Part shown: positions 1,770-32,790 of the stretch, piece after piece
Layout of the letters: the number at the start of each line of letters is the position of its first letter
Numbering within the stretch: position 1 is the first letter of the stretch
Translations under genes and position numbers: made by a program
Assembly (NCBI GenBank): GCA_014529615.1
Contig: JAABVD010000005.1
Span: forward strand, 1 to 34,728
Origin: Opitutia bacterium
GTDB lineage: Bacteria > Verrucomicrobiota > Verrucomicrobiia > Opitutales > UBA2995
Direction of reading: 5' to 3'
Length of the DNA: 34,728 nt
The notes under the pieces: model-generated
The model's database searches: none
Told to the model about the DNA's origin: nothing
The model's input: the letters and a program-made list of their open reading frames with translations, nothing else

Positions 1770-1949
1770 TAGTCCGCATGTCTCACAAAATTCGTCGCGA
1801 GCGAACGGAGACCGAGTGCTGGTGCGGGTTTCGAAGCAGATTCGTGGGTGAAGCTGGGTCGACACCCCGCAAAGTCACGAATCCAACGAAGTCCGCGTCA
1901 GCGCCGGTATTCCGGAGCGCAGTAGAAAATTTATGAGACATGCGGGCTA
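1770..1949. mobile_element. MITE-like element, copy 1 (~180 bp, imperfect 23-bp terminal inverted repeats)
   Basis: Left TAGTCCGCATGTCTCACAAAATT (1770-1792) and right AAATTTATGAGACATGCGGGCTA (1927-1949) are near-perfect reverse complements; internal sequence matches a second copy near 3410-3589 in inverted orientation. Confidence 0.65.
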
Positions 1950-3011
1950 GATCCTTTCGATGCTGATCCGGACGATTTTGACGTCTTCCACCGGCCGGTC
2001 GCCGCCGGAAGTGGCAACGTTCTGGATCGCTTCGGCCACGTCCATTCCTTCCAGGACTCTTCCGAATACCGTATGTTTCCCGTTCAACCAGCCGGCGCCG
2101 TCTTTCTTGGTTACGATAAAAAACTGCGACCCGTTGGTATTGGGACCGGAATTGGCCATGCAAAGGGTACCGTAATCCACCGTTCCGAGAAGTTTGGGCT
2201 GATTGAGCGCAGCTTCGCTTCCCACCAGGGCCTGCAGTTCCTCGATTGTTTTACCAACCAGAGGACGGAGTGAATTCGTCGCAGTGATCTGCGCGTGCAG
2301 TTCTTTGATTTCCGCAACCGAACTGCTCTCCTGGTGTGCCTGCAGGTGAGGCAGCAGCAACTTTTGAAAAACAGTGTTGGCCGTGTATTCGTCTTTAATC
2401 ACCCCTTTGATGGGGATGAGTTCCTTTTCAAACCCGGTCGGTTTTTCGGTCGATCCCAAAAGGGTCTGTAGACCTTCCACATTTCTTCCAATAAGCGGTT
2501 GATAGGATTGAGAGGACTGCATCTGCCCAAACAAAGCGGCTATTTCGGGTATGGGACTGGTTCCGTCATTATCCCTCAAGTGTGGAAGAATCAGTTGGTC
2601 GAACACTTGACCGGCCATTTCCCCATCCCCGATCACCCCTTCCAGTGGGACAACCGTGCCGGCATAGCATTCATCCCGAAAGCTGTATCCAGGCCCCCCA
2701 GTACCTGTTCCCTGAGGGCAGCCACCCTGGATCATGAAGTCCTTGATAACCCGGTGGAAAATGAGTCCGTCAAAAAAAGGTTCATTTTTCTCTTCTCCCG
2801 ATGGAGTCTTCCAGGTTTTGGTTCCCTCGGCCAATCCGACGAAATTTTCTACCGTGATTGGAGTGGTATTCTCGAAGAGCTCGATCACCATCGTCCCCAT
2901 GCTCGTTTCCATACGGGCCACCAGGGTTTTTGGCTTTTGGCGACATCCTGAAAAAATCGTCATGGCAAGAAGTAGCAGGCAGATGGCAGGTTTAAGGAAA
3001 TTTCCCTTCAT
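1947..3011 (-). CDS. Peptidyl-prolyl cis-trans isomerase, cyclophilin type, lipoprotein, with a ~160 aa duplicated insert
   Basis: ORF 1947..3083; cyclophilin motifs [47 protein letters not shown]; lipobox LAMTIFSGC; likely start [10 protein letters not shown] at 3011. Confidence 0.9.
2184..2669 (-). other. Insertion inside the cyclophilin domain containing two tandem divergent ~70-78 aa repeats
   Basis: [63 protein letters not shown] versus [63 protein letters not shown], located between FRDE and [14 protein letters not shown]. Confidence 0.8.
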
Positions 3012-3409
3012 TGAGAGGGAAGGAAAAGCTTGGATCACTCCATGGGCAACTGGAAAAGACGCCCTTACATTCGAAGGGGTCAAACCTGAAATCTCAACAT
3101 CGCAAGCGACGTCAAGACGACACGCCGTTGCATGGCAACTTTGCGACGCACGGTTGCAAGGATCAGCCGTCGCCCAATGGCTGTGGCTAACATGATGATC
3201 CCGACGTCATTCGCCTCATTACCGGGCTTGAAGTCTACCGTAAACCCCATAGGGTTCCTGGGATATTACAGCAAAATTAAATTCCCCGCCTTCCCATCGG
3301 GGATGAGGGAGATCTGAGATGAAACACGGAATTGTCAGGCCAAACTCCGGTCCCCGGTTTGAAAGGAAGCAAATCCTACCCATCGAACGCGCCGTCAACA
3401 GCCTGGCCC

Positions 3410-3589
3410 CAGCCCACAAATCTCACAAGTCTTCTACTGCGCTCCGGAATCCCGGCACTGGTGCGGACTTCGTTGGATTCGCCTGCCCGTGCTCCGCACA
3501 GAAGCAGGCGACTTTGCAGGGTGTCGACCCAGCTTCACCCGCTCATCGGCGCGAACGGGCCAGCTCCTGTTTTGCGGGGACCGACATCT
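3410..3589. mobile_element. MITE-like element, copy 2 (inverted relative to copy 1, degenerate ends, ~28 bp internal insertion)
   Basis: CAGCCCACAAATCTCACAAGTCTTCTACTGCGCTCCGGAATCCCGGCACTGGTGCGGACTTCGTTGGATTCG...GACTTTGCAGGGTGTCGACCCAGCTTCACCC matches the reverse complement of copy 1. Confidence 0.6.
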
Positions 3590-3598
3590 AGGATTCGA

Positions 3599-5122
3599 TT
3601 GAATTTGCTCCCATGGTTGCTCTTTTCTGTAACGGCCGGGTGCCTCATCTCCGCCTGCTCCCATACACCGGAACAGATCTCCTCGGTTTCCCCAACGGCC
3701 GCGGAATTGCCATCGGAGTTTTCAGCAAGCGAGGTTGTCGGCTCCTACGAACCACTGGAGTGGTGGAAGGCGTTCGACGATCCGGTTCTCGACCAGGTGA
3801 TCGCGGCCGTGCTGGCCTCCAATTTCGACTTGGCCGAGGCGGTGGCCCGGGTCGATCAGGCCAGGGCGCGGGAACGCTTCGCCAAATCCTCGGCGATTCC
3901 GTCGCTTCAACCTACTGTTCTCGTAAGCGAATTCGATATTCCCATTAGTTCAGGTATTGGCGCACAATTGGAAGGATTGGGGGTGATTTCCGACGAAAAC
4001 AAAACCTTGTTTCCAGACCGGCTCGGCCTGACTACCTACAATATCGGTCTGGATTTCTCCTACGAACTCGACTTCTGGGGGCGGAATCGCAACGACACGC
4101 TGGCCGCCGGAGCTGAGTTGATGGCATCGGAGTCCGACTACCTGACCGCCCGGATGGGGGTGCTGGCCGAAACCGTTCGCACCTATTTGGAAATGGTCAA
4201 TTTGCGCCACCAGCATGGACTTGCAGGGGAAATCGTAGAGATTTTACTGCAGCGGGAATTGCTGGCCGAGTCCCGGTATGACCGTGGTTTGACCGATTTG
4301 CGCGATCTGCATGCGGTACGGCAGAGCCTGCGGGAAGCTCAGGCCGAATTGCCGCAAATCGAAGCGCTGCTGGCAGATGCGGAGGGACGGTTGTGGATAC
4401 TTGCCGGAGGCTACCGTCCCGACCTCGCGGATATGCTCTCCAATTCCCGGATTCCATCCATTGTGTTCAAACCCGTTCCCGTGGGCATTCCGGCCGACCT
4501 CATGGTGCAGCGGCCCGACATCCTTGCGGCGATGCAGCGCTTGGAAGCGGCCCGATATTCAGTCGGCGCCCGCCGCGCGGATCGGTTGCCGAGGTTGTCC
4601 CTGCAAGGTTCCATCGGACTAAGGTCTACGGATTCGAGCATGTGGTTCGATTCGGAACAATGGTTCCGGACATTCAGCATGAACTTGCTAGGTCCCGTAT
4701 TCCAGGGTTCCCGTATTCGCAGCAACATCGCCCTGGCCGAGGCCAGGTTGAATGAGGCTGTGAACGCCTTTGGACGTTCCGTGGTAACCGCGGTCAACGA
4801 GGTTGAAGCGGCCCTGGTTGGCCTGCAAGCCAGCCGCCAGCGTCATTCACTGCTGGTTTCCCTTGCGGACGAGGCGGAGGCCGAATCAGAGTTGGAGGAG
4901 CAACGCTACCTTTCGGGTGTGGGTGACTATGAAGCTTTCCTGGCCGGGCTGCAGATCCAAATGGGCGCCGAGTCTGCCCTTGCCGCGGCAGGGCGCGATC
5001 TGGGTTATGCCCGCCTCGCGCTCCACCGGGCGCTTGGGGGCGCGTGGACCTCCGAGGATAGGGAGACCCTCCAGCCTCAACCGCATTCCCTGCTTCTCTC
5101 ATCTCGATCCCCTACAGAGTAA
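3599..5122 (+). CDS. RND efflux outer-membrane lipoprotein (NodT/TolC-like OMF)
   Basis: ORF 3332..5122; lipoprotein signal LLPWLLFSVTAGCLISAC; OMF features (WWKAFDDPVLDQVIAAVLASNFDLAEAVARVDQARAR, ADLMVQRPDILAAMQRLEAARYSVGARRADRLPRLSLQGSIGL). Upstream part of the ORF is repeat-derived; TTG at 3599 is the likely start. Confidence 0.88.
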   Translation: MNLLPWLLFSVTAGCLISACSHTPEQISSVSPTAAELPSEFSASEVVGSYEPLEWWKAFDDPVLDQVIAAVLASNFDLAEAVARVDQARARERFAKSSAIPSLQPTVLVSEFDIPISSGIGAQLEGLGVISDENKTLFPDRLGLTTYNIGLDFSYELDFWGRNRNDTLAAGAELMASESDYLTARMGVLAETVRTYLEMVNLRHQHGLAGEIVEILLQRELLAESRYDRGLTDLRDLHAVRQSLREAQAELPQIEALLADAEGRLWILAGGYRPDLADMLSNSRIPSIVFKPVPVGIPADLMVQRPDILAAMQRLEAARYSVGARRADRLPRLSLQGSIGLRSTDSSMWFDSEQWFRTFSMNLLGPVFQGSRIRSNIALAEARLNEAVNAFGRSVVTAVNEVEAALVGLQASRQRHSLLVSLADEAEAESELEEQRYLSGVGDYEAFLAGLQIQMGAESALAAAGRDLGYARLALHRALGGAWTSEDRETLQPQPHSLLLSSRSPTE

Positions 5123-5128
5123 TTGGCC

Positions 5129-6343
5129 ATGTCCCGTATAATCAGTATTGGTGCTTCCGCCGCCATTATCGTGGCTTCGGTTGCTTTGGCTGCATTTTTA
5201 ATTTCACGAGCGCCTGAACCGGTCCGTACCGAACAGCCTCCCCAGATCCCCTTTGTGCAGACTGGCCTGATCCGAGCCGGGACCGGTCCCATACCGGTAT
5301 TTGGATCCGGCACGGTGTGGCCCAGTGCGGAGATCGATATCGTTCCTCAGGTGGGCGGCAAGATCGTCTGGGTGGATCCGGGATTTCAAAGCGGTGGACG
5401 GATAGCGGCGGGCCAAACCATCTTCCGCATTGAAGAGGTCGATTTTCTATACCGGGTAGAGGAAGCGGAAGCCGATCTCGCCGCCAGCCGGGTGGCTTTG
5501 CTCAGAGAGAAGGAACAGGCATCGATTGCCCACGAGCAATACGCATTGTACTCAGACCTGCAGGAGGATGAGGTTTCGCCGTCCACAACGAATCCGCTCA
5601 CCCTGAGGGAACCCCAGTTGAGCTCGGCTCAAGCCGCTTTTGACCGTGACGAGGCCAAACTTGCGGATGCTCAAATTGCTCTTTCCAGAACCAGGGTAAC
5701 GGCTCCCTTTGATGGTTTGGTCAAGGAAGCATCCGTGGACGTGGGAAAAATTGTGGTTGCCGGCCAATCCGTCGGGCGGATATTCGCTACGGATGCAGTG
5801 GAAGTTATCATTCCCCTGTCCGATTCCGATGCCGCTTTGATCCCGGGGTTGTGGTCGCTTTCGGCGGGTGACGGAAACCGGGCAGTGGCTTCGCGTGTAA
5901 TTGCTCGCTACGGCGACGGAACCTATGCCTGGGAAGGTTATGTGGACCGGGTCAAGGCATCCCTAGACAGGCAAACGCGCACTATCGAGGTCATCGTGCG
6001 CGTTCCGGATCCCCTTCATTCAGGGATCCCGGTGGACGGAACGGTTCATCCTGGCGGCAACCCTCCGCTTCTGGTCGGCAAATTTGTGGAGGTGGAAATC
6101 GAGGGACTGGCATTGGAAGCATACTACCGGGCGCCGCGGGCTGCACTAAAATCCGGCAACGAGGTTTGGGTCGTGACCGATGGTGGCGTGGTCAGTATCG
6201 TTCCGGTAGCGGTGCTGCAACGTACCTCCGACGAAGTATATGTGGCCGGAACACTGGAAAACGGCCAACCCGTCGTCACCGGTGGAATCCTGTTCGCCAC
6301 AGAAGGCCTGCGCGTCCTGACGGAAATTGACTCGGCTCCATGA
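5129..6343 (+). CDS. RND efflux periplasmic adaptor (membrane fusion protein)
   Basis: N-terminal TM helix, GSGTVWPSAEIDIVPQVGGKIVWVDPGFQSGGRIAAGQTIFRIEEVDF and TRVTAPFDGLVKEASVDVGKIVVAGQSVGRIF (HlyD/AcrA pattern); sits between OMF and RND genes. Confidence 0.92.
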   Translation: MSRIISIGASAAIIVASVALAAFLISRAPEPVRTEQPPQIPFVQTGLIRAGTGPIPVFGSGTVWPSAEIDIVPQVGGKIVWVDPGFQSGGRIAAGQTIFRIEEVDFLYRVEEAEADLAASRVALLREKEQASIAHEQYALYSDLQEDEVSPSTTNPLTLREPQLSSAQAAFDRDEAKLADAQIALSRTRVTAPFDGLVKEASVDVGKIVVAGQSVGRIFATDAVEVIIPLSDSDAALIPGLWSLSAGDGNRAVASRVIARYGDGTYAWEGYVDRVKASLDRQTRTIEVIVRVPDPLHSGIPVDGTVHPGGNPPLLVGKFVEVEIEGLALEAYYRAPRAALKSGNEVWVVTDGGVVSIVPVAVLQRTSDEVYVAGTLENGQPVVTGGILFATEGLRVLTEIDSAP

Positions 6344-9300
6344 GTTCCGATCCCGACTATAATAAGGAACGGTCCGGCCCGATCGCCTACATGGCCGGCA
6401 ATGGCGTAGCCGCCAATCTATTGATGTGGGTAATTATCGCAGCCGGTCTGGTATCCCTTACCGGCCTGGAGAGGGAAGCGTGGCCCACGGTTCCCTTCTA
6501 CCATATCGAAGTTACGATGGCCTATCCCGGAGCCACACCGGAGGAGGTGGAGGAGTCGATTGTGGTCAAGATCGAGGATCGGGTCAGCGGGTTGGATGAC
6601 GTGAAGGCTGTAAAATCCGTTGCGGCGCCTGGTATGGCATCCGTCCGCATTCAAATGGATTCCGGTACGGACATGGCCCGGGCCTTGAACGATATCGAGT
6701 CTGCGGTCAGTCGAATACAGTCTTTCCCTGCCGGTGCCGAACGCCCTCTATTCTGGGAAATGACCAACCGCCAGAGCATGATGCGGCTCATTGTTTTTGG
6801 GGATGTTTCCGAGCGCTCGCTCAAGGAATTGGCCTTCCAGATCGAGGATGAACTCAAGATGCTTCCCTCCCTGTCACAGGTCGAGGTCAGTGGTGTTCGG
6901 AACTACGAGATCTCTATCGAAGTACCGCTCAATCGGCTGAGAGCCCTTGGACTTACCCTGACCGACATCGCGGACACCATTCGCAGCAGTTCTCTGGACC
7001 TGTCTGCCGGCAGCATCCTGACCCGGGAATCCAGGGTGAGGATCCGGACCCTCGGCCAAAACTACGACCAGCAGGATTTCGAAGAAATCGTCCTTCTCAG
7101 CCACAGCGACGGTACCGTTTTGCGTCTTGGAGATATCGCTGAAGTTCGCGACGGATTTCAGAAAACCAACCTGATTGTCCGGCATCAGAACCATCCCGCT
7201 GTATTCGTCGAGGTTTACCGGGCCAATGGCGAGCAAGTGATGGACGTGGCCAGGACTGTCCGGGAGCACTTGGCCAACGAGGTGATTCCGGCCCTGCCGG
7301 ACGGTGTGGGTATCACGGTGTGGAATGATGAATCCCAGGACTATAAGGAACGGGCCGAAATTCTCCTCAAAAACGGGATTCTTGGTCTGTTGCTGGTGTT
7401 GATTGCACTCAGTTTGTTTCTCCAAATCCGGCTGGCCCTGTGGGTCGCGGTAGGTCTCGCCGTTTCGGGTATCGGCGCCCTGGCGGTCATGCTGTTACTC
7501 GATCTCGCGATTAATGTCCAAAGCCTTTTCTCCTTTGTATTGGCCATAGGTATCGTCGTCGACGACGCCATCGTGGTAGCCGAGCACATTCAATACGAAC
7601 GCAAGCGGGGAACTCCCGGGGTGTTGGCCGCTATCCGCGGCGCCCGCCGGATAAAAGTGCCTTTGACATTCGCGGTCCTCACCTCGGTTGTGGCCTTCGT
7701 CCCGTTGCTCTTCATTCCCGGTGGCATCGGGGAAACATGGCGGGCGCTGCCCATCATCATGATCGCCATTCTTTTGGTTTCCCTGGTCGAATCACTGCTG
7801 ATTCTGCCCAACCACCTGTCCCATCTGCACGGCCCGGAATGGGAGCCGGAAAGAGCGCTCGATCGGTTCTTCGCAAGGCTGCAAGGAGGCGTGAACCGGC
7901 TTCTCAACAGGTTCGTGCAAGGTCCCCTGGACCGGGCGCTTCGGTTCGCCACGGACCAGCCCCTGGTGACGATGGCGGGGGCTGTGGGCATGCTCGTGTT
8001 GAGTATCTCGCTGGTACCCGCGGGTATCGTTCCCACCACTTTCGCCGCTGACGTTGAAGGGGATTATGCAACGGTCACTTTGGAAATGCCCGATGGAACG
8101 ACCGTCTCGAGGACCCACGAGGTGGCGAAGAAATTGGAGTCTGCAGGCCATCGGGTTATCGAACGATATTCCCGCGACCGGCCAGAGGATGCGCCTCCAC
8201 TTCTGAGAGGGGTAACGGTGGTGGTCGGACAGCGGCCAAGAGTCCAGGGAGGAGGACTCAATCCGGAGCCCACCCTCAATCCGGAAGCCAATGTCGCCAC
8301 CATCGAATTCAAACTCCTGAGCGCGCAGCAAAGAAAGATTTCCACTGTCGATTTCGTGCAGGCATGGCGAGAGGAGGTCGGTGCGCTACCTTACGTGCGC
8401 GGAATCATCTTCAGCGGCGAGGTCATCCAGTTGGGCAATCCTGTCGAGGCCGTATTGTCGCATCCGGACCCGAAGTTCCTCGTCCGGATCGCAAACGCGG
8501 TGGTCGATGGTCTCCGTGGAGTGGGAGGCGTCTACGACATACATTCGGATCACACCCCGGGCATCCCGGAAATTCAGCTCGAGCTGCGGCCGGAAGCGCG
8601 AACCCTCGGTCTCACGCTGGAAGAGCTGGCCGAGCAGACACGTGCCGCGTTTTTTGGCGCACGGGCCGTCCGGGTGCAGCGCGGCCGGGAAGAGGTCCGC
8701 GTCTACGTGCGCCTTCCCCTCGACGAACGGAATTCCATTACTGATATCGAAAGGTACCTGCTCCGTACGCCGAGCGGGGCCGAGGTCCCGGTTGCCAGCG
8801 TGGCCTCGCTGAACTCCGGGGTGTCGCCGCCGGCCATTCGACGGAAGGATGGTCAGCGTGTTGTCACGGTTACCGCGGACGTGGACGCCACGGTGATTTC
8901 CGGGGACGAAGCCAACAGCATCCTGGCTGGTTCGATCCTGGCTGATCTGACCGCCGTGTACCCGGACCTGACCTATACGTTCGGAGGTGAACAACAACAG
9001 CAACTCGAGTCCCTGGATGCGCTGTATCGCGGATTTGCCATTGCCTTGATCATGATTTTCGTACTGCTCGCCCTCTCCCTCCGGTCTTACACCAAACCGT
9101 TCATCGTCATGGCCGTCATCCCGTTCGGGTTCATCGGAGTGATTCTGGGCCACTGGGTCCTGGGAATCGCCCTGAGCGCAGTATCGTTCATGGGTGTATT
9201 CGGCCTGAGCGGCGTGGTGGTGAACGATTCCCTGGTCATGATCGATTTCATCGATCAGGAACTCAGGGAAGGCATGTCGGCTCGCACTGCCATCATAGAG

Positions 9301-9525
9301 GGCGCCAAGGGCCGGTTTCGTCCCATCATGCTCACTTCCCTCACTACTTTCCTCGGTTTCTTTCCCCTCATTCTGGAACGCGCAATTCAGGCCCAGTTCC
9401 TGATCCCCTTTGCCGCATCGCTCGGCTGCGGGATTCTCTTTGTCACGGCGCTGCTCATGATGGTGGTACCCGCGCTCTACATGATCCATTTGCGTCTGGG
9501 TTCCTGGCGACGTAAAGCAAGATAG
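6340..9525 (+). CDS. RND efflux permease (AcrB/MexF family)
   Basis: 1061 aa; MAYPGATPEEVEESIVVKIEDRV, SIVVDDAIVVAEHI-type segment, ARTAIIEGAKGRFRPIMLTSLTTFLGFFPL; ATGA overlap with the adaptor gene. Confidence 0.96.
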   Translation: MSSDPDYNKERSGPIAYMAGNGVAANLLMWVIIAAGLVSLTGLEREAWPTVPFYHIEVTMAYPGATPEEVEESIVVKIEDRVSGLDDVKAVKSVAAPGMASVRIQMDSGTDMARALNDIESAVSRIQSFPAGAERPLFWEMTNRQSMMRLIVFGDVSERSLKELAFQIEDELKMLPSLSQVEVSGVRNYEISIEVPLNRLRALGLTLTDIADTIRSSSLDLSAGSILTRESRVRIRTLGQNYDQQDFEEIVLLSHSDGTVLRLGDIAEVRDGFQKTNLIVRHQNHPAVFVEVYRANGEQVMDVARTVREHLANEVIPALPDGVGITVWNDESQDYKERAEILLKNGILGLLLVLIALSLFLQIRLALWVAVGLAVSGIGALAVMLLLDLAINVQSLFSFVLAIGIVVDDAIVVAEHIQYERKRGTPGVLAAIRGARRIKVPLTFAVLTSVVAFVPLLFIPGGIGETWRALPIIMIAILLVSLVESLLILPNHLSHLHGPEWEPERALDRFFARLQGGVNRLLNRFVQGPLDRALRFATDQPLVTMAGAVGMLVLSISLVPAGIVPTTFAADVEGDYATVTLEMPDGTTVSRTHEVAKKLESAGHRVIERYSRDRPEDAPPLLRGVTVVVGQRPRVQGGGLNPEPTLNPEANVATIEFKLLSAQQRKISTVDFVQAWREEVGALPYVRGIIFSGEVIQLGNPVEAVLSHPDPKFLVRIANAVVDGLRGVGGVYDIHSDHTPGIPEIQLELRPEARTLGLTLEELAEQTRAAFFGARAVRVQRGREEVRVYVRLPLDERNSITDIERYLLRTPSGAEVPVASVASLNSGVSPPAIRRKDGQRVVTVTADVDATVISGDEANSILAGSILADLTAVYPDLTYTFGGEQQQQLESLDALYRGFAIALIMIFVLLALSLRSYTKPFIVMAVIPFGFIGVILGHWVLGIALSAVSFMGVFGLSGVVVNDSLVMIDFIDQELREGMSARTAIIEGAKGRFRPIMLTSLTTFLGFFPLILERAIQAQFLIPFAASLGCGILFVTALLMMVVPALYMIHLRLGSWRRKAR

Positions 9526-9589: not shown

Positions 9590-10330
9590 ATGAATCTTTC
9601 CCGATTTTTTCGATTTGCAGCGGTAGGGAGCCTCGGGCTCCTGCCAGCCGAGGCCAACGCACAAACAATCGATCAGGCAAGGGCCGCCTTTGAGGAAGGG
9701 CGATTTCTCGAGGCGGCCGATCTTGCGGAATCCCTCGGGACCTCCGCAGGCTACGCCCTGGCGGCGCAATCCCTCGCGGTCTACGGCCACTATGTGGCGC
9801 AGGAGGAGGACAGGATCGGGTTCCTGGAAAGCGCGATGGAACTCGGTGAAGCGGCCGTACGCGCCGATTCAACCAATCCCGAGGCGCATTACCAGTCCTC
9901 CCATGCCGTTGGTCGCTATGCCCAGAGCATCGGTAAAATTTCGGCGCTTGGCCAAGGCTTGGCCGGAAAGATCCGCCGGCTGCTCGAGGCCACCCTGGAC
10001 AACCACCCCGACTTCGCCGAGGCTCATGTGGGCCTGGGGGGCTGGCACGCCGATATCGCCAGCGCCGGGCCCTTTGCCAGAATGATGTACGGGGCAAATC
10101 GAAAAAGTGCGGTCGTCCATTACGAGCGGGCTCTGGAACTCGCGCCGGATTCCAAAGTCGTCTTATTGGAATATGGCATCAGACTGCCTGAACTCGATCG
10201 CAAGGGAGGTCTGGAGAGGGCCAGGGAGTTGCTATCGAAGGCGGTCGAACTACCGGTGAGGAATGCCCACGAGGAGTTCATCCAGCAGGAGGTAGTGCAG
10301 GCCCTGGAGAAGTTGAAGATGGACCGATAG
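9590..10330 (+). CDS. Secreted TPR-like repeat protein
   Basis: 246 aa with signal peptide; helical repeats (AEAHVGLGGWHADIASAG, VVHYERALELAPDSKVVLLEYGIRLPELDRKGGLERARELLSKAVELP). Confidence 0.7.
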   Translation: MNLSRFFRFAAVGSLGLLPAEANAQTIDQARAAFEEGRFLEAADLAESLGTSAGYALAAQSLAVYGHYVAQEEDRIGFLESAMELGEAAVRADSTNPEAHYQSSHAVGRYAQSIGKISALGQGLAGKIRRLLEATLDNHPDFAEAHVGLGGWHADIASAGPFARMMYGANRKSAVVHYERALELAPDSKVVLLEYGIRLPELDRKGGLERARELLSKAVELPVRNAHEEFIQQEVVQALEKLKMDR

Positions 10331-11047: not shown

Positions 11048-12148
11048 TTGACCGACCATCCGGACAAACAAATTGGAAATTCCCATCGACCTTTCTTGAA
11101 TCACATCAATGAGATTTCAGCATTCCCCGAGGGGTGGTATTTTGTAGCGAACCGCGCATCCATTCTGCGAGAGAATCTGATCGAAAAAACATGGATGGGC
11201 CAGGAAATCATCGCCTGGTCCGACGGGGAAGGCCATATCTGCGTGGCCGAAGCGTACTGTCCGCATCTGGGCTCGCACCTTGGGCCTACGGTGGGCGGCC
11301 GAGTGCGCGACGGGTGCCTGGTCTGTCCTTTCCACGGTTTCGAGTTCGACAGGACGGGCCAATGCGTTGCCACTCCAAATGCCCCGGCTCCAAAAGCGGC
11401 GAGACTGAGCGTCTACCGGACCAGAGAGATTCTGGGAATGGTCTTCGCCTGGTGGGGCGTCGGCGGGCGGGCGCCGCAATGGGATCTGCCCGATGATCCC
11501 CCAGCCGGCGCTGAATGGTCCCGTTTGCGATCCACAAAGCTCCGGTTCCGGGGTCATCCCCAGGAGACCACGGAAAACTCGGTGGACGTGGAACACCTCG
11601 GTTACACCCACGGCTATCACGATGTGGCCCCGACCGGTACGATTTCGATTGAGGGGGCTTACCTCAGAAGTTGTTTCGACTTCACTAATGTTAATAGATT
11701 CGCGGGCCTGTTTAACATAACAAGTGAGGTCTCGGCCGTTACCCACGTGCACGGGCTGGGCTATTCCTTCGTGGAAATCCAGGAGAAGACGATAGGCCTG
11801 GATGCGAGATTGTGGGTACTTCCTACACCTGTCGACGGCACATTTGTCAATCTCGTGCTGGTCAGTCAACTACGGGAAATCCGCAAACCCGGACGGTTCT
11901 TCGCGGGGTTGGGTTTCCTGCCGGTGAGGCTGCGCCACAGGTTGATAAATTGTTTCTTCCTGCGGCAGGAGAAGCGGTACGTCATGCAAGATGTGACAAT
12001 CTGGGAACGAAAGCGGTATCAACCTCGCCCCAGGCTCTGTCGTGGGGATGGTCCCATTGGGAAATACCGCCGCTATTGTCGGCAGTTCTATCCAAAGCTT
12101 CAGCCCGAAAAACCGGGTACGGCCGAGATCGAATCCACTCGCCCCTGA
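11048..12148 (+). CDS. Rieske [2Fe-2S] mononuclear-iron oxygenase, DAF-36/Neverland/KshA-like
   Basis: Rieske motif CPHLGSHLGPTVGGRVRDGCLVCPFHGFEFD; catalytic ENSVDVEHLGYTHGYHD (N-x2-D-x2-H-x4-H); C-terminal IWERKRYQPRPRLCRGDGPIGKYRRYCRQFYPK resembling the sterol-oxygenase tail. Confidence 0.88.
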   Translation: MTDHPDKQIGNSHRPFLNHINEISAFPEGWYFVANRASILRENLIEKTWMGQEIIAWSDGEGHICVAEAYCPHLGSHLGPTVGGRVRDGCLVCPFHGFEFDRTGQCVATPNAPAPKAARLSVYRTREILGMVFAWWGVGGRAPQWDLPDDPPAGAEWSRLRSTKLRFRGHPQETTENSVDVEHLGYTHGYHDVAPTGTISIEGAYLRSCFDFTNVNRFAGLFNITSEVSAVTHVHGLGYSFVEIQEKTIGLDARLWVLPTPVDGTFVNLVLVSQLREIRKPGRFFAGLGFLPVRLRHRLINCFFLRQEKRYVMQDVTIWERKRYQPRPRLCRGDGPIGKYRRYCRQFYPKLQPEKPGTAEIESTRP

Positions 12149-12238: not shown

Positions 12239-13603
12239 TCAGCCCTTCACCTTCCTGAACCTCCGGCCGTACATGATACTCCCGTAGTAATTGAACGCTC
12301 GCCTCGACTCGGAATCGTCGAATGGATATTCCGCTCCCAACTGTCTTGCCGCGGCGAGGCCACTCACCAGGCAGGTTTCCTGGCTGTTGATCAAGGTATG
12401 AGCGCCACAATGCCAGGTTTGCCTCCTGCCCTGAATGAAGCGGAACAAATTGACGAGCCATGCGACATGCCGCACATCGTGCACTATATGTTGAAACCAC
12501 CACCTGCCGACAATCTTTTGTTCATCGATCCGGCTGATCGGATTGTAGGTCACCAGACAGGGTTTGTCAGACCGATTGGCCCACGGTTGCTGGTTGTGCA
12601 TTATGTAGGTGATTTCATAATTGTCCGGTCTGGCGCCGTATTGCTCTATGTGATTGCTCCTTGTCGTGAGGGGCTTGACCTCGTTATCCGGAAGAACTGA
12701 AGCATCCGAATGCACGACGGTATGGTTGTGGAGTTCGCTCTCGTAACGTATGGACGAGAGAATGTAACGCTCCGGAAGGGTAGGTTTATCCAGAATCATC
12801 AGTGTCTGGTTTGCGTTGCAGGCAAAGATCACCTCGTCGAACGTCTCCATTACGCCGTCTTCGTCCTCTACCATGACCTGGGAGGACTGGCGGTAGACCT
12901 TTCGGACAGGACGGTTCAGGTATATCCTGTCCTTGAATCTGGCGGACAGATTCTCGTAGATGCGCCGCGTTCCCTGGTCCCACGTCTGCATGGAGGTAGC
13001 GGATTCGATATCAAAGTATTCGAGATATCGGGAAAAGAGGGCCGCAGGCATATCAAACACATTTGTCGCCATCAGGAAGTTGACAAACATGGGCTTCAGC
13101 ACCTTGTACCTGAAGTCCCCGGAAAACCCGCCAAGATTCAGGACCGTCCCCATGCTGATGTAATTGAACGGATTGAGGGCGTTGAGAAACTTCGACCGGG
13201 ATCGGGTCAGCCACCCAAACCAATGCAGACGCCTGAGGATTCGTTGAAACTTTGCGATCTCGGATTGAAGCTGGTCTCGGATCTCAGAGTCGAAATCGTG
13301 GGCGTATAGACCGCCGTGGTACTTTACGCTGTAGCTGAATCTGGTATCGATCAGTTCGATGCCGAACTGTTTCATCAACGACACGATGTGCTGATACACC
13401 GTTGGGATACAGGCGGTGACGGAAATGTCGAAGGGAATGGAACTGCCGTCATCCTGCGGCATATCGGCGGTTATGGCATTTCCGCCGATCCGGTCCTGGG
13501 CCTCAAACAGCCGGAAATCGAAACGGTCGGGATCGTGATCCAAGGCCCAGGCCGCCCCCAGCCCCGATATGCCTCCGCCTACAATGGCTATGCGTCGTGG
13601 CAT
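12239..13603 (-). CDS. FAD-dependent amine-oxidase-fold oxidoreductase (COG2907-like NAD/FAD-binding protein)
   Basis: N-terminal dinucleotide motif RRIAIVGGGISGLGAAWAL...RLFEAQDRIGGNAITADM; ORF 12239..13636, start at MPRRIAIVGG likely (13603). Confidence 0.85.
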   Translation of the reverse strand: MPRRIAIVGGGISGLGAAWALDHDPDRFDFRLFEAQDRIGGNAITADMPQDDGSSIPFDISVTACIPTVYQHIVSLMKQFGIELIDTRFSYSVKYHGGLYAHDFDSEIRDQLQSEIAKFQRILRRLHWFGWLTRSRSKFLNALNPFNYISMGTVLNLGGFSGDFRYKVLKPMFVNFLMATNVFDMPAALFSRYLEYFDIESATSMQTWDQGTRRIYENLSARFKDRIYLNRPVRKVYRQSSQVMVEDEDGVMETFDEVIFACNANQTLMILDKPTLPERYILSSIRYESELHNHTVVHSDASVLPDNEVKPLTTRSNHIEQYGARPDNYEITYIMHNQQPWANRSDKPCLVTYNPISRIDEQKIVGRWWFQHIVHDVRHVAWLVNLFRFIQGRRQTWHCGAHTLINSQETCLVSGLAAARQLGAEYPFDDSESRRAFNYYGSIMYGRRFRKVKG

Positions 13604-13643
13604 GGTTCTTTTGCCACCGGTTGTTTTTAGGTCCATTGCCGCA

Positions 13644-15674
13644 TCAGGCTGGCAGATCGCGCTTCTTCTCAGCGATGCGAAACTTCAGCTTCTTGGACGG
13701 TTTCATCGACGGAATCGGATTGAACCGAAGCTTGTAATTCGCAGGAAACACCTCGAGCGAAAAGTAATGTGCGACCATCAGCACGTTGACGGCCAGTTGC
13801 AATTCCATCCACCGGGAACCGAGACAGGTGTGTGTGCCCAGCCCGTAGGGCGCGTAGCCGGGATTGAGGTGCTCATTGCGTGGAGGCAGGTAGCGGTCGA
13901 TATCGAAGGAAAAGGGGTTGGGGAAGACATCGTCCATGTAGTGCCCGGCGGTTTGGGCAATGTAGAGCCGTGACCCCACCGGAAGTTCGTAGCCCTCGAC
14001 CACACAGGTGTTCATCACGGTTCTGATGGACATGGGGACAATGGGGTACATGCGCAGGCACTCCATGAGAAAGCGGTGTGTGACATCGATCGCCGATGGG
14101 GTGAAGTCGCCACCATCAGGATCGCCGTCCTTGAACAGGGCATCCGCCTCTCTCCGAATTCTTTCGTAAAGAGCGGGTTGTGAGGCCATGGCGTAGACAG
14201 CGAAGCTGAACCCATCACCCAGGTAGACACTGGCAATAAGGGCTGCGGAAAGAGCGAAACGCAGGTTCGATTCCGGCACGATTTGCGGATCGCTGGCGTG
14301 CAGGCTTAGCAAGTCATCCGCCAAATTCCGCGGACATCCGGCCCGCTGCGCGGGTGTATGAACGCCTTGGACCCGCCCCAACAACGTTTCCACGGCTTTG
14401 GCCCGGCGTTTCATTCCCGGGGTCTTCAGAAGAAATTTGGGAAGGGCTCCTATGATGTGAGTGGTGAGGGCTCGTTCCTTGTACTTTATAAGATCGTCGA
14501 TGATATCCTGCGAATCAACGCTGACGGCGAGCGGTGAGATTTGGGCGTTGATCATTCGCCGGCACAGGCGCGATGCGGGATAGACGTCGCCCACTTTCCA
14601 ATCCGCCATATATTTTCTGACATAACCGTAAAGTTGCTCCAGTTGCCCCGCAAGTCGGGTGCGTGAATAGGCCGGGGACAATGCCTTGCGCAACCGGAAA
14701 TGATCGGCCCCATCCAGGGAGGGCAAAACGCCGACGGCGCCGTAGATTTTCTCGAAGTCGGCAAAATATTCCCTCACTCTCAGGTGCAACCGCCCGTGCC
14801 GGTGCACCCAGCGGTTGGTCTCGGTCCCAGCCAGGAAGATCATGGGTTCCTTAAAAGGGGGACGGACCTCGAATACCGGTCCGAACTCTTTGGTAAGGTC
14901 CGCAAACAACGCGGGAACGTTGCCCTCGCGCAAATGGGGATTGCGCAGCAATTTACCCAGCGGGACACGCGGGATCTGCTTGGTCAAGGTGGATCGCCGA
15001 AGCAATGGACCGGCGAGATTGTGTTGGACCGCAGCGGCTATGGAACGGCCGATCAAGTCCATCTTGCAGATAAACCTGATGCGCTCCTCCGCCTCCTCAT
15101 CGAGTTGGAATATGAAGCGCAGGACGTCGCACGTATTGACGAGGCAAATAATGATGACATCTCTGGGATCGGGAATCTCGTTCATGAAGATGGCCCTGCT
15201 GATGCGCGTTTTGATGAACTGACCAGCGGTGCCTTCCTGGGAATCGTTGGACATATCCGTGTGCCAGATAGTGGGAGCCAGGGTCCAGAAGTCCCCCTTG
15301 TGGTGTTCCAGGATCTTCAGGTCAACCAGGCGGTCCAGCACCGAATCAATGATCGATTCGGCGCGGGGAGCGAGCCTTTCTATCCAATACTGGGTGTTGT
15401 TTTGAACGGGTTCGTTTGCGATTAACTCAAGTATGGGGTCCAGGGCTGAGTTGCCCGTTTCCGTCTTGTCCACCAGGAAGAGGGATTCCATGTCCGTGTC
15501 GATGCGGGACCTGAGCGAAAGTTCCGCCAACACGCCCCCGACCACAGCGCAGTTCAAATCCCAACCGGGCACCTGGTGAAAGTAGCCGGTCTCCTCGTTG
15601 AGGAGCATAAGGATGAGTTCCTGGGTCAAAGTTAACGGTTGGGTCGTCAAATCTCCTGTAGAAGTAGTAGCCAT
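13644..15674 (-). CDS. Fusion protein: N-terminal GPP34 (Golgi phosphoprotein 3-like) domain + C-terminal cytochrome P450
   Basis: ORF 13644..15716; N-term LTLTQELILMLLNEETGYFHQVPG...VVGGVLAELSLRSRID...DPRDVIIICLVNTCDVLRFIF (GPP34 pattern); C-term P450 with ECLRMYPIVPMSIR (ExxR) and YGLGTHTCLGSRWMELQLAV (heme Cys). GGAGG RBS at ~15684-15688 precedes ATG 15674. Confidence 0.88.
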   Translation of the reverse strand: MATTSTGDLTTQPLTLTQELILMLLNEETGYFHQVPGWDLNCAVVGGVLAELSLRSRIDTDMESLFLVDKTETGNSALDPILELIANEPVQNNTQYWIERLAPRAESIIDSVLDRLVDLKILEHHKGDFWTLAPTIWHTDMSNDSQEGTAGQFIKTRISRAIFMNEIPDPRDVIIICLVNTCDVLRFIFQLDEEAEERIRFICKMDLIGRSIAAAVQHNLAGPLLRRSTLTKQIPRVPLGKLLRNPHLREGNVPALFADLTKEFGPVFEVRPPFKEPMIFLAGTETNRWVHRHGRLHLRVREYFADFEKIYGAVGVLPSLDGADHFRLRKALSPAYSRTRLAGQLEQLYGYVRKYMADWKVGDVYPASRLCRRMINAQISPLAVSVDSQDIIDDLIKYKERALTTHIIGALPKFLLKTPGMKRRAKAVETLLGRVQGVHTPAQRAGCPRNLADDLLSLHASDPQIVPESNLRFALSAALIASVYLGDGFSFAVYAMASQPALYERIRREADALFKDGDPDGGDFTPSAIDVTHRFLMECLRMYPIVPMSIRTVMNTCVVEGYELPVGSRLYIAQTAGHYMDDVFPNPFSFDIDRYLPPRNEHLNPGYAPYGLGTHTCLGSRWMELQLAVNVLMVAHYFSLEVFPANYKLRFNPIPSMKPSKKLKFRIAEKKRDLPA

Positions 15675-15893
15675 CAGTCTTAGCCTCCCTGCATGATCTC
15701 GAAACCAAGGGACCATTCCCCTTGTTTTCTCATAGTGGGTATATTGATCCCGCTTGGGTGGGGCAAGTCATATTCTCATGCGCAGCTGACCCTGGGCAGT
15801 TTCGGGGAAAGGCCCTCCGGCAGGTAGTTCTGCTAACAGATTGCTCAACCCGGAGCGCAGGCCAAATTTTCCGCTGAGCCTTCCATCGGTTCC

Positions 15894-17168
15894 TCAGCTT
15901 TGCCCGCCGATGCAGTACAAGCGGTTTGCGGTGCGAAGGTAAAGCCGGTCGTCGTGTGGAACGGGGGAGGCGATGGCGCTGCCTGGCAATGTATTTTCGG
16001 CAAGGATTTCCATGCCGTCTTCGCTCAATCTGCAGACAAAAATCGTTCCATCTTCGCGGCTGCAAATCAGCCGGTCACCCGCCACCACGGGGGAGGCATA
16101 GTAACGGGTGGGCTTCCTCGGCAGGTTGCTCTGCCATTTGATTGCGCCCGATTTTACTTCTATGGCGGTGAGACTGCCGCGATCATTCAATATGATGGCC
16201 GTGTCGCGGTAGATGGCCGGAGTCGGCACATCGGGTCCGATACGTTCAATCTCCCAAAGTCTTGAATTCTTGGTGATGTCGCCTTCGCCCCCCATTTGAA
16301 TGCCGGCAACGGCGTAGCCGCGGCCGTAAGGCACGATGGCCACGTCATCCGCAATGGTATGGGAAGCGATGGTCCTCCAATTCTTGGCCTCGTTCGGGTT
16401 GAAGTTCTTGCACCTCCAGATAAGACTGCCGTCTTTCAAGGAGTGTCCGGTCAATTGGTCGGCTCCCCAGATTACCAGTTGTTTTTCTCCGTCTACGGTT
16501 GCCACCAGAGGGGTGGAGTAGGAGTCGTTGGATTCGACCGGGGCATTGAGGTTGCGTTCCACCAGCCAGGCTTCTTTGCCCGAGTCCTTGTCGAAGGCTA
16601 CGACGTAGGCGCTGGCCTCTTTTCCGTCCCTGCGCTGGGTTTGTTGCATAACGGCGACGATGAGGAGATCGTCTACCAGAACGGGAGAGGTGCCCTCATC
16701 CCACCAGTGGCCGTCGATGCTGTATTCCTGCTTCAGATTGGTTTTCCATATTTGCTCACCGCTGTGAGAAAGTTTGGCCAGATTCCCGGACTTGTAGTAA
16801 ACATAAACGCCGCCGGCGTCGACCACCGGACTGGAATTGGCCCCGGTACCGGCCCGGTTGCTGCCTGCAACGCCCAATCCGATTTCCGCTTCCCATCTTT
16901 TTTGACCCTGGTTATCGAAAGCGATGGCCAAATCGAGACCGTCATAAAAACAGGTCAGGTACACGGTATCTTTCCAGATGGCCGGTGTAGAGGTGCCTTC
17001 ACCGGGAATGGGAACGGACCAAACCACGTTTTCGGAGTCCGAAAACTGGCTGGGAAAGGCCTGCTCCCCGGTGGAAAGATTGAAGTTGGGGCCCCTCCAG
17101 TTGGTCCAGTTGGCCAGGAGGGAAGAAGATGCCAGACAAATAATGAGGATGATATGTTTTTGGCGCAT
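15894..17168 (-). CDS. Secreted PQQ-like (BamB/WD-like) beta-propeller protein
   Basis: 424 aa; signal peptide; repeats of Trp-docking type (LSHSGEQIWKTNLKQEYS, LAIAFDNQGQKRWEAEIG, VVAFDKDSGKEAWLVERN). Confidence 0.85.
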   Translation of the reverse strand: MRQKHIILIICLASSSLLANWTNWRGPNFNLSTGEQAFPSQFSDSENVVWSVPIPGEGTSTPAIWKDTVYLTCFYDGLDLAIAFDNQGQKRWEAEIGLGVAGSNRAGTGANSSPVVDAGGVYVYYKSGNLAKLSHSGEQIWKTNLKQEYSIDGHWWDEGTSPVLVDDLLIVAVMQQTQRRDGKEASAYVVAFDKDSGKEAWLVERNLNAPVESNDSYSTPLVATVDGEKQLVIWGADQLTGHSLKDGSLIWRCKNFNPNEAKNWRTIASHTIADDVAIVPYGRGYAVAGIQMGGEGDITKNSRLWEIERIGPDVPTPAIYRDTAIILNDRGSLTAIEVKSGAIKWQSNLPRKPTRYYASPVVAGDRLICSREDGTIFVCRLSEDGMEILAENTLPGSAIASPVPHDDRLYLRTANRLYCIGGQS

Positions 17169-17269: not shown

Positions 17270-19366
17270 ATGCAAACAGCCAAAAGCATTCCCTGCATTG
17301 TCTTTTTTCTTGTTTTTGGGTCGAAGGACATGGTCCTTTCCGGCCAGGAGAATCTGGATACGGTTGACCTCGACACCTTTGAAATTCAGGGGGATTATCA
17401 AGCAACCGATTTGCAAATCGACCTTTCCAAGTCGATAATCGAGGAAAATCTGCTGGCCATTTATGGCGCCACTCAGTTGCAGGACCTTTCCGGTTTGGCC
17501 CCGAACCTTTATTCCAGCAACGCCGACACGCGTGGTTTTGGCGACATAATCTCCATGCGGGGAAGCGCCAATACCATGTTCTTCAGTTCACCGGCGGTTG
17601 CTCTTTATATCGATGATATTCCGGCCAGTTCGGTATCTACTTATCCGAGCGACTTGTTGAGCATCGCCAATCTGACGGTACATTCCGGTCCCCAATCGAC
17701 GCGTTACGGGCGCAATGCCCCGGCCGGGGTCATCGAGATCCGTTCGCGCGAGCCCAGCAAGACCCACTACACCCATCTGCAAATCGATTCCGGGTCCTAC
17801 GATGCGCTGACGGTCAAGGGGGCCTTCGACGGGCCGATAAGCGAAGGAATCGGCTACAATTTCAGTTTTGGGTTTCACCAACGGGATGGATATTTGCACA
17901 ACACGTTTCTGGATCGCACGGCGGATAACCGCGAGTCCCTCAGTGCGCGGGCCAATATATTTTTCAGGCCCAACGAGGATGTCCAAATTCGGCTCGGGCT
18001 GTTTGTGGAAAGCGACGATGATGACGCGACCCGGCTCAGTTCGCTTCATAGTGAAAATCCCTATCAGGTGGCTTCGGATTTCAATAGTCAGACCGTGGTC
18101 GACCGCGGTCAGGTTAATTTCCAGTATCGCAAGCTTTATGATTGGGGGAGACTGGTTGCGACCACTGCTTTCCAGGGTTGGGAATTGAATCCGTCCAGCC
18201 TGGATTTGGACTTCAGCCCGGCTCCGATTTCCACTTCCTTGATCGTGGGGGAGGAAGATACTTTCACGCAGGAAGTCTGGTTGGAATCCCTCGACTTTGA
18301 CGGCCCCATGACCTGGAAGTCCGGGTTGTTGTATTTTGATTCGGAGTACAGTGTGAATTTCTACCGGGAATTTGCAGTTCCGCCCAATGCCTTTATTCCT
18401 CCGGGATTGATACAAATGGAGGGCACGGATTTTGAAATCGGGCAGCTCAACCTGGCGGCATACGGGGACGCTGACTTTGCCGTTTCGGATACGACCTCGC
18501 TCAATCTGGGTGTCCGGGTGGACCATTTCGATGCCGGTGTCTCCAGGGCCTCGCAAAATTCCAACAATTTCATGATTCCCTTATTTCCCCCCGAACCGGA
18601 TGTCGACACGTCGCGCAAGGAATTGAAAGGTTCGGTGAGTGGCGGCGCCACATTCGCCATCAAGGAAAACATGGACATCGTCCTTCGCTCTTCCCTGGCC
18701 CAACAACACCATGGATTCAGCAGTTTTGCCGGCAACCCGGAATTGCTGGGGTATCAGTCCGCCGATATTTGGGCCAATGAAATAGGCCTTGATTTTGCCA
18801 GCGAGGACGGGGAAACCGGGTTCAGCATCCTGTTTTTCTACAATCAGACGGACGATTACCAGCTCGAGAGAACGATCCCCATGACAACGGATTTTTTGGT
18901 TATCAATGCGGAAGAGGTCTCCGCACAGGGTTTGGAAGGCAAACTGGTGTTCAGTCCTCTGGACAACTTTTACGTGGATATACAATTCGGTTATAATGAC
19001 GTAACCTTCGAACGGCACACCGATGGGTATGGTTTGGACGTGAGTGGAAATCGCGTTCCTTTTATTCCCGAGTACACCTTCAGAACGGGAGCGCGTTACG
19101 AATTGGACAACGGGCTATTTGCCAGCGTTACCCATACCGCATTTGGGGATACCTATTACGACGAGCAAAACACTGAAAATTTCAGCCAATCCTCCTATTA
19201 CCTGTTAAGTACTCAATTTGGTTATCGCATTGGGCGGTATTCCTTTACCGTTTTCGGGCATAATGTGACCGACGAACGCTATTATCAGTTTATTAATCGG
19301 GATATACAGGCCGGAAGCCCGGGAGCGCCCCAGAGATTTGGCTTGCGAATGAATTATATCTTTTAG
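17270..19366 (+). CDS. TonB-dependent outer-membrane receptor
   Basis: 698 aa; plug domain (ISMRGSANTMFFSSPAVALYIDDIP...VHSGPQSTRYGRNAPAGVIEIRSREPS), C-terminal beta-barrel ending in ...RFGLRMNYIF with aromatic terminus. Confidence 0.93.
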   Translation: MQTAKSIPCIVFFLVFGSKDMVLSGQENLDTVDLDTFEIQGDYQATDLQIDLSKSIIEENLLAIYGATQLQDLSGLAPNLYSSNADTRGFGDIISMRGSANTMFFSSPAVALYIDDIPASSVSTYPSDLLSIANLTVHSGPQSTRYGRNAPAGVIEIRSREPSKTHYTHLQIDSGSYDALTVKGAFDGPISEGIGYNFSFGFHQRDGYLHNTFLDRTADNRESLSARANIFFRPNEDVQIRLGLFVESDDDDATRLSSLHSENPYQVASDFNSQTVVDRGQVNFQYRKLYDWGRLVATTAFQGWELNPSSLDLDFSPAPISTSLIVGEEDTFTQEVWLESLDFDGPMTWKSGLLYFDSEYSVNFYREFAVPPNAFIPPGLIQMEGTDFEIGQLNLAAYGDADFAVSDTTSLNLGVRVDHFDAGVSRASQNSNNFMIPLFPPEPDVDTSRKELKGSVSGGATFAIKENMDIVLRSSLAQQHHGFSSFAGNPELLGYQSADIWANEIGLDFASEDGETGFSILFFYNQTDDYQLERTIPMTTDFLVINAEEVSAQGLEGKLVFSPLDNFYVDIQFGYNDVTFERHTDGYGLDVSGNRVPFIPEYTFRTGARYELDNGLFASVTHTAFGDTYYDEQNTENFSQSSYYLLSTQFGYRIGRYSFTVFGHNVTDERYYQFINRDIQAGSPGAPQRFGLRMNYIF

Positions 19367-31590: not shown

Positions 31591-32790
31591 TTACTCGAAC
31601 CTCCTTAAGATTCCTTGCAAGCGGCTACGAATTTTCCCGGTCAGGGCGGGACCGCCCGTTTTTGTGCCGAGCGAGCGCTCTCGCAGGAATTGCCGGACGT
31701 CAATGGGGGTATCAAATTTGATTTCCGCGGTGCGGGGGCCGTAATATTTTTCGGAATTCAGGACGTCCTCCTCGAGTTTGAACAGTGTCTCGGCGATGCG
31801 GTCATGGGTCGGGTTCCGTTGGAGGTAACGGCCAGGGTAGCTGTAAAGTTGCTGGGCTACGAAAATCCGGTCCAACTGATCGTAGAGATCTGCTTCCTTC
31901 CGGGAATCCAAAGGGGACTTCCTATCAGTGAGTTCCTTGCGAATCCTTGCCCGCAGGGCCTTTATGCGCATGGGCATTTTCAAGTCGCTGTTGGATAATT
32001 TGTAGATGGACTCGATGGATTCTATCAGGCTGGTCTGGAGACCTCGAATGCGATCGACCAGATTCCCCGGCCGGGTCCGACCCAGAAACTCCTCTTCCTT
32101 TATGGAAAGCAGGGCCGAACCCAGGCGGTAAATGCGATCGACCGGACCCAGTCCCGATTTTGGCTTCCAGGTTATGTAGGCTTCCAGGCAATCCAAACGA
32201 TCGGAAAAGGTTTTCCCGATATCCGGGCTGTTCCGGATGCGAATTCCGGTCGGGACGACGTAACTTGTCCTGTTTTCGGGCAGTTTGGCGGTGGCTCGCA
32301 GCAGTATGGTGGCTACGCCTTCGTTCAACTCGTCCAGCATCTCGTGATGATGATAAATTTCCCCTTCCGGAAAAATCACCAGGGGAAATTCACCCTTCTG
32401 GAGGATGCGGATGGCGGTTTTAATTGCTCCCAGATCGCCGCCTTCGCGATTTATGGAAAAAGCCCCGGACTTTTGCAGGAAAAAACGCTGTAACTCCCCC
32501 CTCTCAAACCCTTCCCTGGCCGCCATGAAATGGAAGGTCATTCCGTAGCGCCGGGCCACCGTCAGCATGAGGCTGGGATCAGCGTGGTCGGCATGATTGG
32601 GAGCCACCAAAACCGGTTGCCGCTTACGCGCGAGGTCGGCCACCCTTTCGGCGCCGCTGATTTTAATATTCCTTACCTTGAACTTGCGGGTGAGAAAATA
32701 CCTGGAAATGAGGGAAGCGACCGGTTTGAACCAGGGCGAGTACTGGGGCGGCCTGAAACGGTAGGGCACTTGTGGACGGAAGAGGTTCAC
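31591..32790 (-). CDS. 1-acyl-sn-glycerol-3-phosphate acyltransferase-like protein (PlsC)
   Basis: 399 aa; VAPNHADHADPSL (HX4D), SINREGG, FPEGEIYHH. Confidence 0.85.
   Translation of the reverse strand: MNLFRPQVPYRFRPPQYSPWFKPVASLISRYFLTRKFKVRNIKISGAERVADLARKRQPVLVAPNHADHADPSLMLTVARRYGMTFHFMAAREGFERGELQRFFLQKSGAFSINREGGDLGAIKTAIRILQKGEFPLVIFPEGEIYHHHEMLDELNEGVATILLRATAKLPENRTSYVVPTGIRIRNSPDIGKTFSDRLDCLEAYITWKPKSGLGPVDRIYRLGSALLSIKEEEFLGRTRPGNLVDRIRGLQTSLIESIESIYKLSNSDLKMPMRIKALRARIRKELTDRKSPLDSRKEADLYDQLDRIFVAQQLYSYPGRYLQRNPTHDRIAETLFKLEEDVLNSEKYYGPRTAEIKFDTPIDVRQFLRERSLGTKTGGPALTGKIRSRLQGILRRFE

Follow-up and report, generated by a model that had tools for sequence, protein, structure and literature searches.

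A GPP34-cytochrome P450 fusion and a candidate sterol-tailoring module in sponge-type symbiotic bacteria

Described systems and the present locus

Sterol gene clusters of sponge symbionts and their horizontal transfer have already been published, as the accessible parts of three papers attest (PMC9531527, PMC7074536, PMC10070321). The Ircinia CSG of Kelly et al. 2022, as far as its available text goes, comes from the same kind of host and the same organisms as those considered here, is distributed over 10 phyla by horizontal transfer, and is described in terms of ERG24, CYP51, LSS, SMT, FDFT1, and DFR; the terms GPP34, Rieske, and efflux do not occur in that portion of the text (PMC9531527). 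In the available account of the msb cluster of a Melophlus symbiont (Mohanty et al. 2020, PMC7074536), a bifunctional squalene epoxidase/cyclase, a sterol reductase, a C30 demethylase, a Rieske protein, an NAD oxidoreductase, and a sterol C24-methyltransferase (SMT) occur together, an arrangement shared by G390, a genome of the same genus as the one studied here, whose squalene epoxidase-oxidosqualene cyclase (SQE-OSC) fusion resembles MsbE. The same account describes no GPP34-P450, however, and states that the cluster termini are devoid of sterol-like genes. The accessible text of Brown et al. 2023 (PMC10070321) tests the SMTs of sponge symbionts only, and the term P450 is absent from it, although SMT is the gene that most often directly adjoins the GPP34-P450 gene described below.

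At the level of the individual domains, the nearest solved P450 by sequence is the CYP51-ferredoxin of Methylococcus capsulatus (6mcw/7jj1), a bacterial P450 that acts on sterols and, like the present protein, carries a fused domain. It differs from the present protein in that its partner is a redox partner, its I helix carries a His-Thr pair, and it is a 14alpha-demethylase. The N terminus shares fold and Pfam family (PF05719) with GOLPH3/Vps74, but the PI4P-coordinating arginines of those proteins are absent from it and it is joined to an enzyme. A literature search, which left most subscription papers outside its reach, did not turn up any description of a GPP34-P450 fusion; where bacterial papers use the name "Gpp34", most mean the unrelated pesticidal protein Cry34.

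Here we analyse a 34,728-nucleotide stretch (the window) of an Opitutales genome (G000), in which an original prediction made from the letters alone had placed a GPP34 domain fused to a cytochrome P450. The P450 belongs to a known class of cluster; what is new is its domain architecture, its altered active site, and the extent of the conserved module, which is wider than that described. Features of the window are collected in Table 1.

Table 1. Features of the window, with positions, strands, and the observations on which each assignment is based.
Feature	Position	Strand	Basis or remark
Outer membrane efflux protein of pump	3332..5122	+	Pfam, ORF clustering
Membrane fusion protein of pump	5123..6343	+	Pfam, ORF clustering
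RND (AcrB-type) transporter	6340..9525	+	73-88% identical across phyla beside GPP34-P450
TPR-type protein recurring in module	9590..10330	+	Pfam, ORF clustering
Rieske oxygenase, KshA_C domain (steroid-hydroxylase-like)	11048..12148	+	Pfam; nearest structures
FAD oxidoreductase (amine-oxidase fold; nearest solved LkcE)	12239..13636	-	7 bp downstream of fusion; Pfam, PDB
GPP34-P450 fusion gene	13644..15674	-	676 aa from ATG 15674; Shine-Dalgarno and start kept in G390
Cytochrome P450 domain	13716..14939	-	PF00067; nearest solved sequences CYP51, CYP120; fold
Heme-ligand cysteine C631 in YGLGTHTCLG	13824..13826	-	Invariant in 54 aligned relatives, one row gapped
ExxR motif (K helix)	14052..14063	-	E552/R555 invariant in 54/54
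I helix, acid-Thr pair replaced, one residue shorter	14181..14273	-	Alignments, AlphaFold model, HMM vs CYP51
GPP34 (GOLPH3-like) domain	15021..15629	-	PF05719; profile match GOLPH3 3kn1; Foldseek GOLPH3/Vps74
Shine-Dalgarno AGGGAGG	15684..15690	-	9 nt upstream of ATG 15674
AATATGACTTGCCC upstream element	15761..15774	-	About 90 bp upstream of start; identical in G390
Empty site	15779..15859	.	81 bp; G390 has about 10.2 kb with sterol biosynthesis cluster
PQQ-type beta-propeller protein	15894..17168	-	Syntenic flank common to G390
TonB-dependent receptor	17270..19366	+	84% identical in G390, syntenic flank

Architecture, distribution, and mosaic origin of the fusion gene

A single protein carries both domains. 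The open frame extends over 13644-15716 on the minus strand (690 aa, the frame to which all residue numbers refer), and the ATG at 15674, the gene end implied by the original prediction, is the true start because this ATG and the Shine-Dalgarno sequence preceding it are both kept in the same-genus genome G390. The prediction had assigned the N-terminal ~220 residues to GPP34 and the remainder to a P450, and had proposed Pfam searches and an AlphaFold model as checks; both assignments are borne out. PF05719 matches residues 30-232 (E 7.4e-29; score 101.7 bits, gathering threshold 29.1), covering model positions 1-200 of 201, and is likewise matched by other fusion members. PF00067 matches residues 453-667 (E 5.6e-28), and the ExxR motif and heme-cysteine loop are present. 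The sequence profile of the GPP34 domain matches GOLPH3 3kn1 (E 6.6e-7). AlphaFold models were built from 34 and 15 sequences; the full-length AlphaFold2 model (pLDDT 83, pTM 0.73) recovers a P450 part similar to solved P450s (Foldseek; TM 0.82 by target length to the CYP51-ferredoxin 6mcw), and when the GPP34 domain is folded alone, its significant Foldseek matches are GOLPH3 and Vps74 only (8 matches; E 8.5e-10 to 1.8e-5; best TMq 0.75).

The original prediction had left unanswered how common this architecture is and had called for an architecture search. When two peptide patterns taken from the GPP34 domain were run against 85,462 genomes, 60 loci were recovered. Of these, 59 match most of the protein at 43-78% identity; they fall in the Chloroflexota, Actinomycetota, Latescibacterota, Binatota, Gemmatimonadota, Pseudomonadota, Poribacteria, Dadabacteria, Verrucomicrobiota, and Acidobacteriota. 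A sample of 349 genomes of the Chloroflexota yielded another 24 GPP34 frames, 680-830 aa long; 18 of these were fetched, 16 being of the window type and 2 of a second subfamily, bringing the total to about 75 relatives with the GPP34-P450 architecture. Among 390 genomes of the window's phylum no GPP34-P450 frame was found besides that of G000, and among 248 Actinomycetota genomes the fusion was confined to the centre genome of the sample. The remaining long frames with GPP34 in the samples from Verrucomicrobiota and Actinomycetota proved not to be fusions: they are open frames without a P450 (G165, G554, G575) or weak chance hits (G013, G209). The architecture is thus rare in general, yet common in one part of the Chloroflexota and shared across phyla in sponge-type MAGs. 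An assembly artefact or stop read-through is ruled out by a full-length copy in G390 (61-62% identical to the window protein), by the 59 scan loci, and by the 16 Chloroflexota loci, given that independent assemblies share the architecture. Two window-type genes, in tandem or close together, were seen at each of five loci (L095, L097, and L099 of Acidimicrobiia, L096, and L113). No plasmid record covers 80% of the fusion protein, the best matches being other P450s, and a "Rosetta stone" test of 30 GPP34 genes that stand alone found no P450-domain match in their 1.5-kb flanks.

The jk18x series, which includes G390 (jk18x7bins.13, an Opitutales MAG), consists of Ircinia sponge MAGs according to the available text of PMC9531527. 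For locus L116, the sponge is named in the assembly title. The other fusion MAGs are presumably also of sponge origin, judging from isolate names and earlier studies, so that most named fusion genomes apparently come from marine sponges; as the scan used two peptide patterns only, we do not claim strict restriction to sponge symbionts.

Comparison of the two halves of the protein points to a mosaic gene. In its GPP34 domain, the window protein shares 81-82% identity with G390, L086, L089, and L093, while its P450 domain is only 52-54% identical to the same four and 82% and 78% identical to those of L113 and L107, respectively; the change in identity occurs at residues ~225-240, the domain boundary. 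In favour of horizontal transfer, the window protein shares 79-80% identity with a Latescibacterota copy, compared to 61% with that of its own congener. Separate GPP34 and P450 trees disagree: a P450 tree forced to group the window with L114 (= G390), L086, L089, and L093 is worse by 389 log units (AU p 3.5e-6), and imposing the P450-tree grouping on the GPP34 data is rejected (p 7e-4), p values that are weakened because the groups were named after the identities had been seen, although the effect is large. Upstream of the gene the DNA is G390-like, and downstream the FAD gene is of the L107 type, a position occupied by an SDR in G390 and in the Latescibacterota copies. On these alignments and trees, the simplest reading would be a recombination at the domain boundary that replaced the P450 half and the downstream gene and kept the promoter and GPP34 half; this supersedes independent acquisition of the whole gene by the window genome and G390. 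The upstream element AATATGACTTGCCC has near matches in the Latescibacterota copies L089 and L093 although the P450 halves differ; it was rejected as a family-wide operator, being found only at the window, G390, and two Latescibacterota copies. An OSC is present in 9 of 14 tested genomes on the P450 branch of G390 versus 3 of 34 on that of the window (Fisher p 2e-4; branch counts taken by hand, in a test that ignores kinship).

Recurrent module and empty site

Open reading frames surrounding the loci were grouped by name-independent clustering. The FAD oxidoreductase, which is likely co-transcribed with the fusion gene, recurs at 31 loci including the window in several phyla, mostly at 76-88% identity. 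The Rieske oxygenase, whose nearest structures are 3-ketosteroid 9alpha-hydroxylases, recurs at 38 (tblastn; 54-73% identical), and the RND pump at 13 (73-88%), both counts again including the window. An MMPL transporter with a sterol-sensing domain and weak BstA/HpnN similarity accompanies 17 loci. SMT was matched at 24 loci, counting G390 twice, at 40-49% identity outside G390; in 21 GPP34-P450 loci it lies at a median gap of 43 bp, 18 of them within 1.5 kb, the gap being approximate for five loci with frameshifted genes. The SMT-bearing loci belong to the Chloroflexota, Gemmatimonadota, Pseudomonadota, Dadabacteria, and Verrucomicrobiota. At the 16 further Chloroflexota loci, the FAD oxidase was found 14 times, the Rieske protein 15 times (plus one weak partial match), the MMPL transporter 13 times, SMT 10 times, and paired ERG4/ERG24 reductases 5 times (L146:12408-14721, L141, L142, L144, and L148). 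The available flanking DNA of eight loci, several of them on short or edge contigs, contained none of the module genes. Genome-wide, Sterol_MT_C was detected in 40 of 52 GPP34-P450 genomes versus 0 of 248 Actinomycetota, a control unmatched for sponge habitat, and a true OSC (>550 bits) in 13 of 50 fusion genomes.

Several further families were observed near these loci or within the window. Beside gammaproteobacterial GPP34-P450 genes lie several copies of a 306-aa family without a Pfam match (L121:7694-8614 and relatives at L117-L120). The window itself encodes a cyclophilin-type peptidyl-prolyl isomerase (1947-3083, minus strand) in which a long insert, seemingly holding two similar repeats, splits the Pfam match in two, and two adjacent minus-strand genes (31591-34631) whose translations resemble an acyltransferase and an MFS-plus-acyltransferase protein.

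In G390 the fusion gene abuts an SQE-OSC fusion (L052:9109-12555; 1148 aa, TIGR03463 at 724 bits), CYP51, ERG4/ERG24, SdmA (408.8 bits), SdmB, and SMT. Given that NCBIfam equivalog cut-offs are not reached, OSC, SdmA, and SdmB are named here by family rather than by curated equivalence. The same sterol gene set occurs at the gammaproteobacterial loci L117 and L118, and OSC frames longer than 1000 aa were also seen in other fusion genomes. By contrast, searches of G000 (91% complete) yielded no match to SQE-OSC, ERG24, SMT, SdmA, or SdmB beyond weak P450, Rieske, and methyltransferase similarity, and likewise no CYP51 or OSC. The ERG24-CYP51-OSC core of the type reported by Kelly et al., present in G390 (itself a MAG of that study, as far as the accessible text of PMC9531527 goes), L117, and L118, was thus absent from the searches of the window and of G000. 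Window and G390 DNA are 86% identical over 6.2 kb on the TonB/PQQ side, fail to align over 81 bp, and resume alignment at the GPP34-P450 promoter, where identity is 70%. This empty site lies inside one contig, and hence the absence of the cluster is not a contig break. Since G000 has an empty site and neither OSC nor SMT, the window module probably acts on acquired sterols that G000 does not make; the TonB-dependent receptor may take part in uptake.

Active site, membrane role, and candidate function

The nearest solved P450 sequences are CYP51 (sterol) and CYP120 (retinoid). The I helix of the window type nevertheless reads A-S-V-Y-L-G-D against A-G-H-H-T-S-S in CYP51, and both the HMM alignment to CYP51 and a multiple alignment with the second subfamily and the G390 CYP51 show the acid-alcohol (D/E/H-T) pair to be missing. 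Tyr498 is invariant among 54 aligned relatives, and residue 499 is Leu, Val, or Met, with one Gly. The CYP51-type His-Thr I helix is absent from the window type, and G390 has a separate CYP51 with FAGQHTS. Without the acid/Thr pair, the window-type (type-1) enzyme has no proton relay of the usual kind; with the I-helix Thr gone, an ordinary monooxygenation that depends on O2 is less assured. Among P450 families without an I-helix Thr are monooxygenases that rely on substrate assistance, peroxygenases, and enzymes of the isomerase/dehydratase type. The second GPP34-P450 subfamily (L143:8284-10287, L158:1272-3311, L159:5996-7978 on the minus strand, and L107:5288-7309; the last two both in Binatota genome G433) has the same domain order in 661-680 aa, is ~30-36% identical to the window type, and keeps the I-helix Asp, as D-T in three of the four members and D-P in the fourth. 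No sterol genes were detected next to it in the DNA retrieved around L143, L158, and L159.

Taken together, we consider it probable that the fusion protein is a membrane-associated sterol-tailoring P450 belonging to a horizontally shared sterol module found mainly in sponge-type symbiotic bacteria. The suggestion in the original prediction that the P450 acts on a lipid is supported and narrowed to sterol by the sterol-gene neighbours in many phyla; for the window genome itself, the sterol link would rest on its homologues and on the Rieske/FAD/RND module. In this proposed mechanism, the substrate would be a sterol, which G000 would obtain from its host or from symbionts nearby. Acting with the Rieske and flavin enzymes, the P450 would oxidise or desaturate the ring or side chain of that sterol; RND/MMPL pumps would then move the product. 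The GPP34 domain would keep the P450, itself soluble, at the inner leaflet or in contact with a partner, and may in this way allow membrane-dissolved sterols to reach the active site.

GOLPH3-type domains are peripheral membrane proteins, and by this analogy docking of the P450 on the membrane is plausible. A second role for the N-terminal half, doubtful but deserving consideration, would be that of an adaptor rather than a membrane dock, one that dimerises or binds partners and so keeps the P450 close to the Rieske, flavin, or SMT enzymes. GOLPH3 and Vps74 are themselves adaptors that grip enzyme tails (PMC8421267, PMC13408441), and the residues by which GOLPH3 binds PI4P (W81, R90, R171, and R174; PMC13408441) are lost in the fusions: across 54 of them the R90 position is V, A, or I in every case, the R171 position is I, V, or L and never basic, the R174 position is mostly L, S, M, or T and basic in at most a few, and only a nearby, displaced Trp corresponds to W81. 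The fusion GPP34 domain instead has strongly conserved positions of its own (W111, R171, and R185). Against an adaptor role stand the lack of a known partner and the peripheral membrane character of the GOLPH3 type.

With regard to the substrate, the GPP34-P450, the KshA-like Rieske protein, and the flavin enzyme could alternatively initiate breakdown of host sterols for carbon. The KshA-type Rieske protein accords with such a catabolic module, as does the enrichment of steroid degraders in sponges, whose MAGs carry divergent KshA (PMC5790920). SDRs, a flavin monooxygenase, a CoA-transferase III, an amidohydrolase, and a further P450 moreover recur near Acidimicrobiia loci (L100, L092, L094, and L097), which is suggestive of a longer, perhaps catabolic, pathway there. 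We nonetheless regard catabolism as unlikely for the module at large: the adjacent SMT and ERG4/24 reductases and, in some cases, OSC and CYP51 are anabolic, the RND/MMPL pumps are of the export type, and the CoA-type neighbours are confined to Acidimicrobiia-type loci. Quite unlikely, in our estimate, is action on another isoprenoid or membrane lipid (hopanoid, carotenoid, or sponge lipid), with the sterol genes as mere co-residents of a mobile island. While CYP120 is among the nearest structures and about 20 of 50 fusion genomes have squalene-hopene-cyclase-like matches and no OSC, a SQE-OSC protein query found no triterpene cyclase match in G000, and the direct partner at many loci is SMT, a sterol-specific family. 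Docking on PI4P as in eukaryotic GOLPH3, perhaps on host membranes, is highly improbable despite the homology of the domain, since R90, R171, and R174 are replaced, leaving the phosphoinositide-binding idea of the original prediction unsupported, and no secretion signal is evident in the N-terminal sequence of the fusion protein.

Building on the sterol-tailoring reading, we put forward a more speculative and rather doubtful proposal: type-1 GPP34-P450s may constitute a new class of sterol enzymes that has given up the proton-relay Thr for another oxidation or rearrangement, with the GPP34 domain as membrane dock. Together with symbiont SMTs, they would make unusual side-chain- or ring-modified sponge sterols, possibly including those read as the 24-isopropyl sponge biomarker. 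As genomes alternate between sterol synthesis and sterol scavenging, the catalytic half would pass from one phylum to another while the GPP34 half stays in place.

Which sponge partner makes the strange sterols is an open question that bears on the oldest proposed animal biomarker. By tying the symbiont SMTs of many phyla to lipid pumps and to a P450 not described before, along with the Rieske and flavin enzymes that accompany it, we offer concrete candidate genes for the missing tailoring and transport steps of sponge sterols. Exchange of P450 domains across phyla can be seen at a domain boundary, and bacterial GPP34 domains gain a biochemical setting in which their function may be tested.
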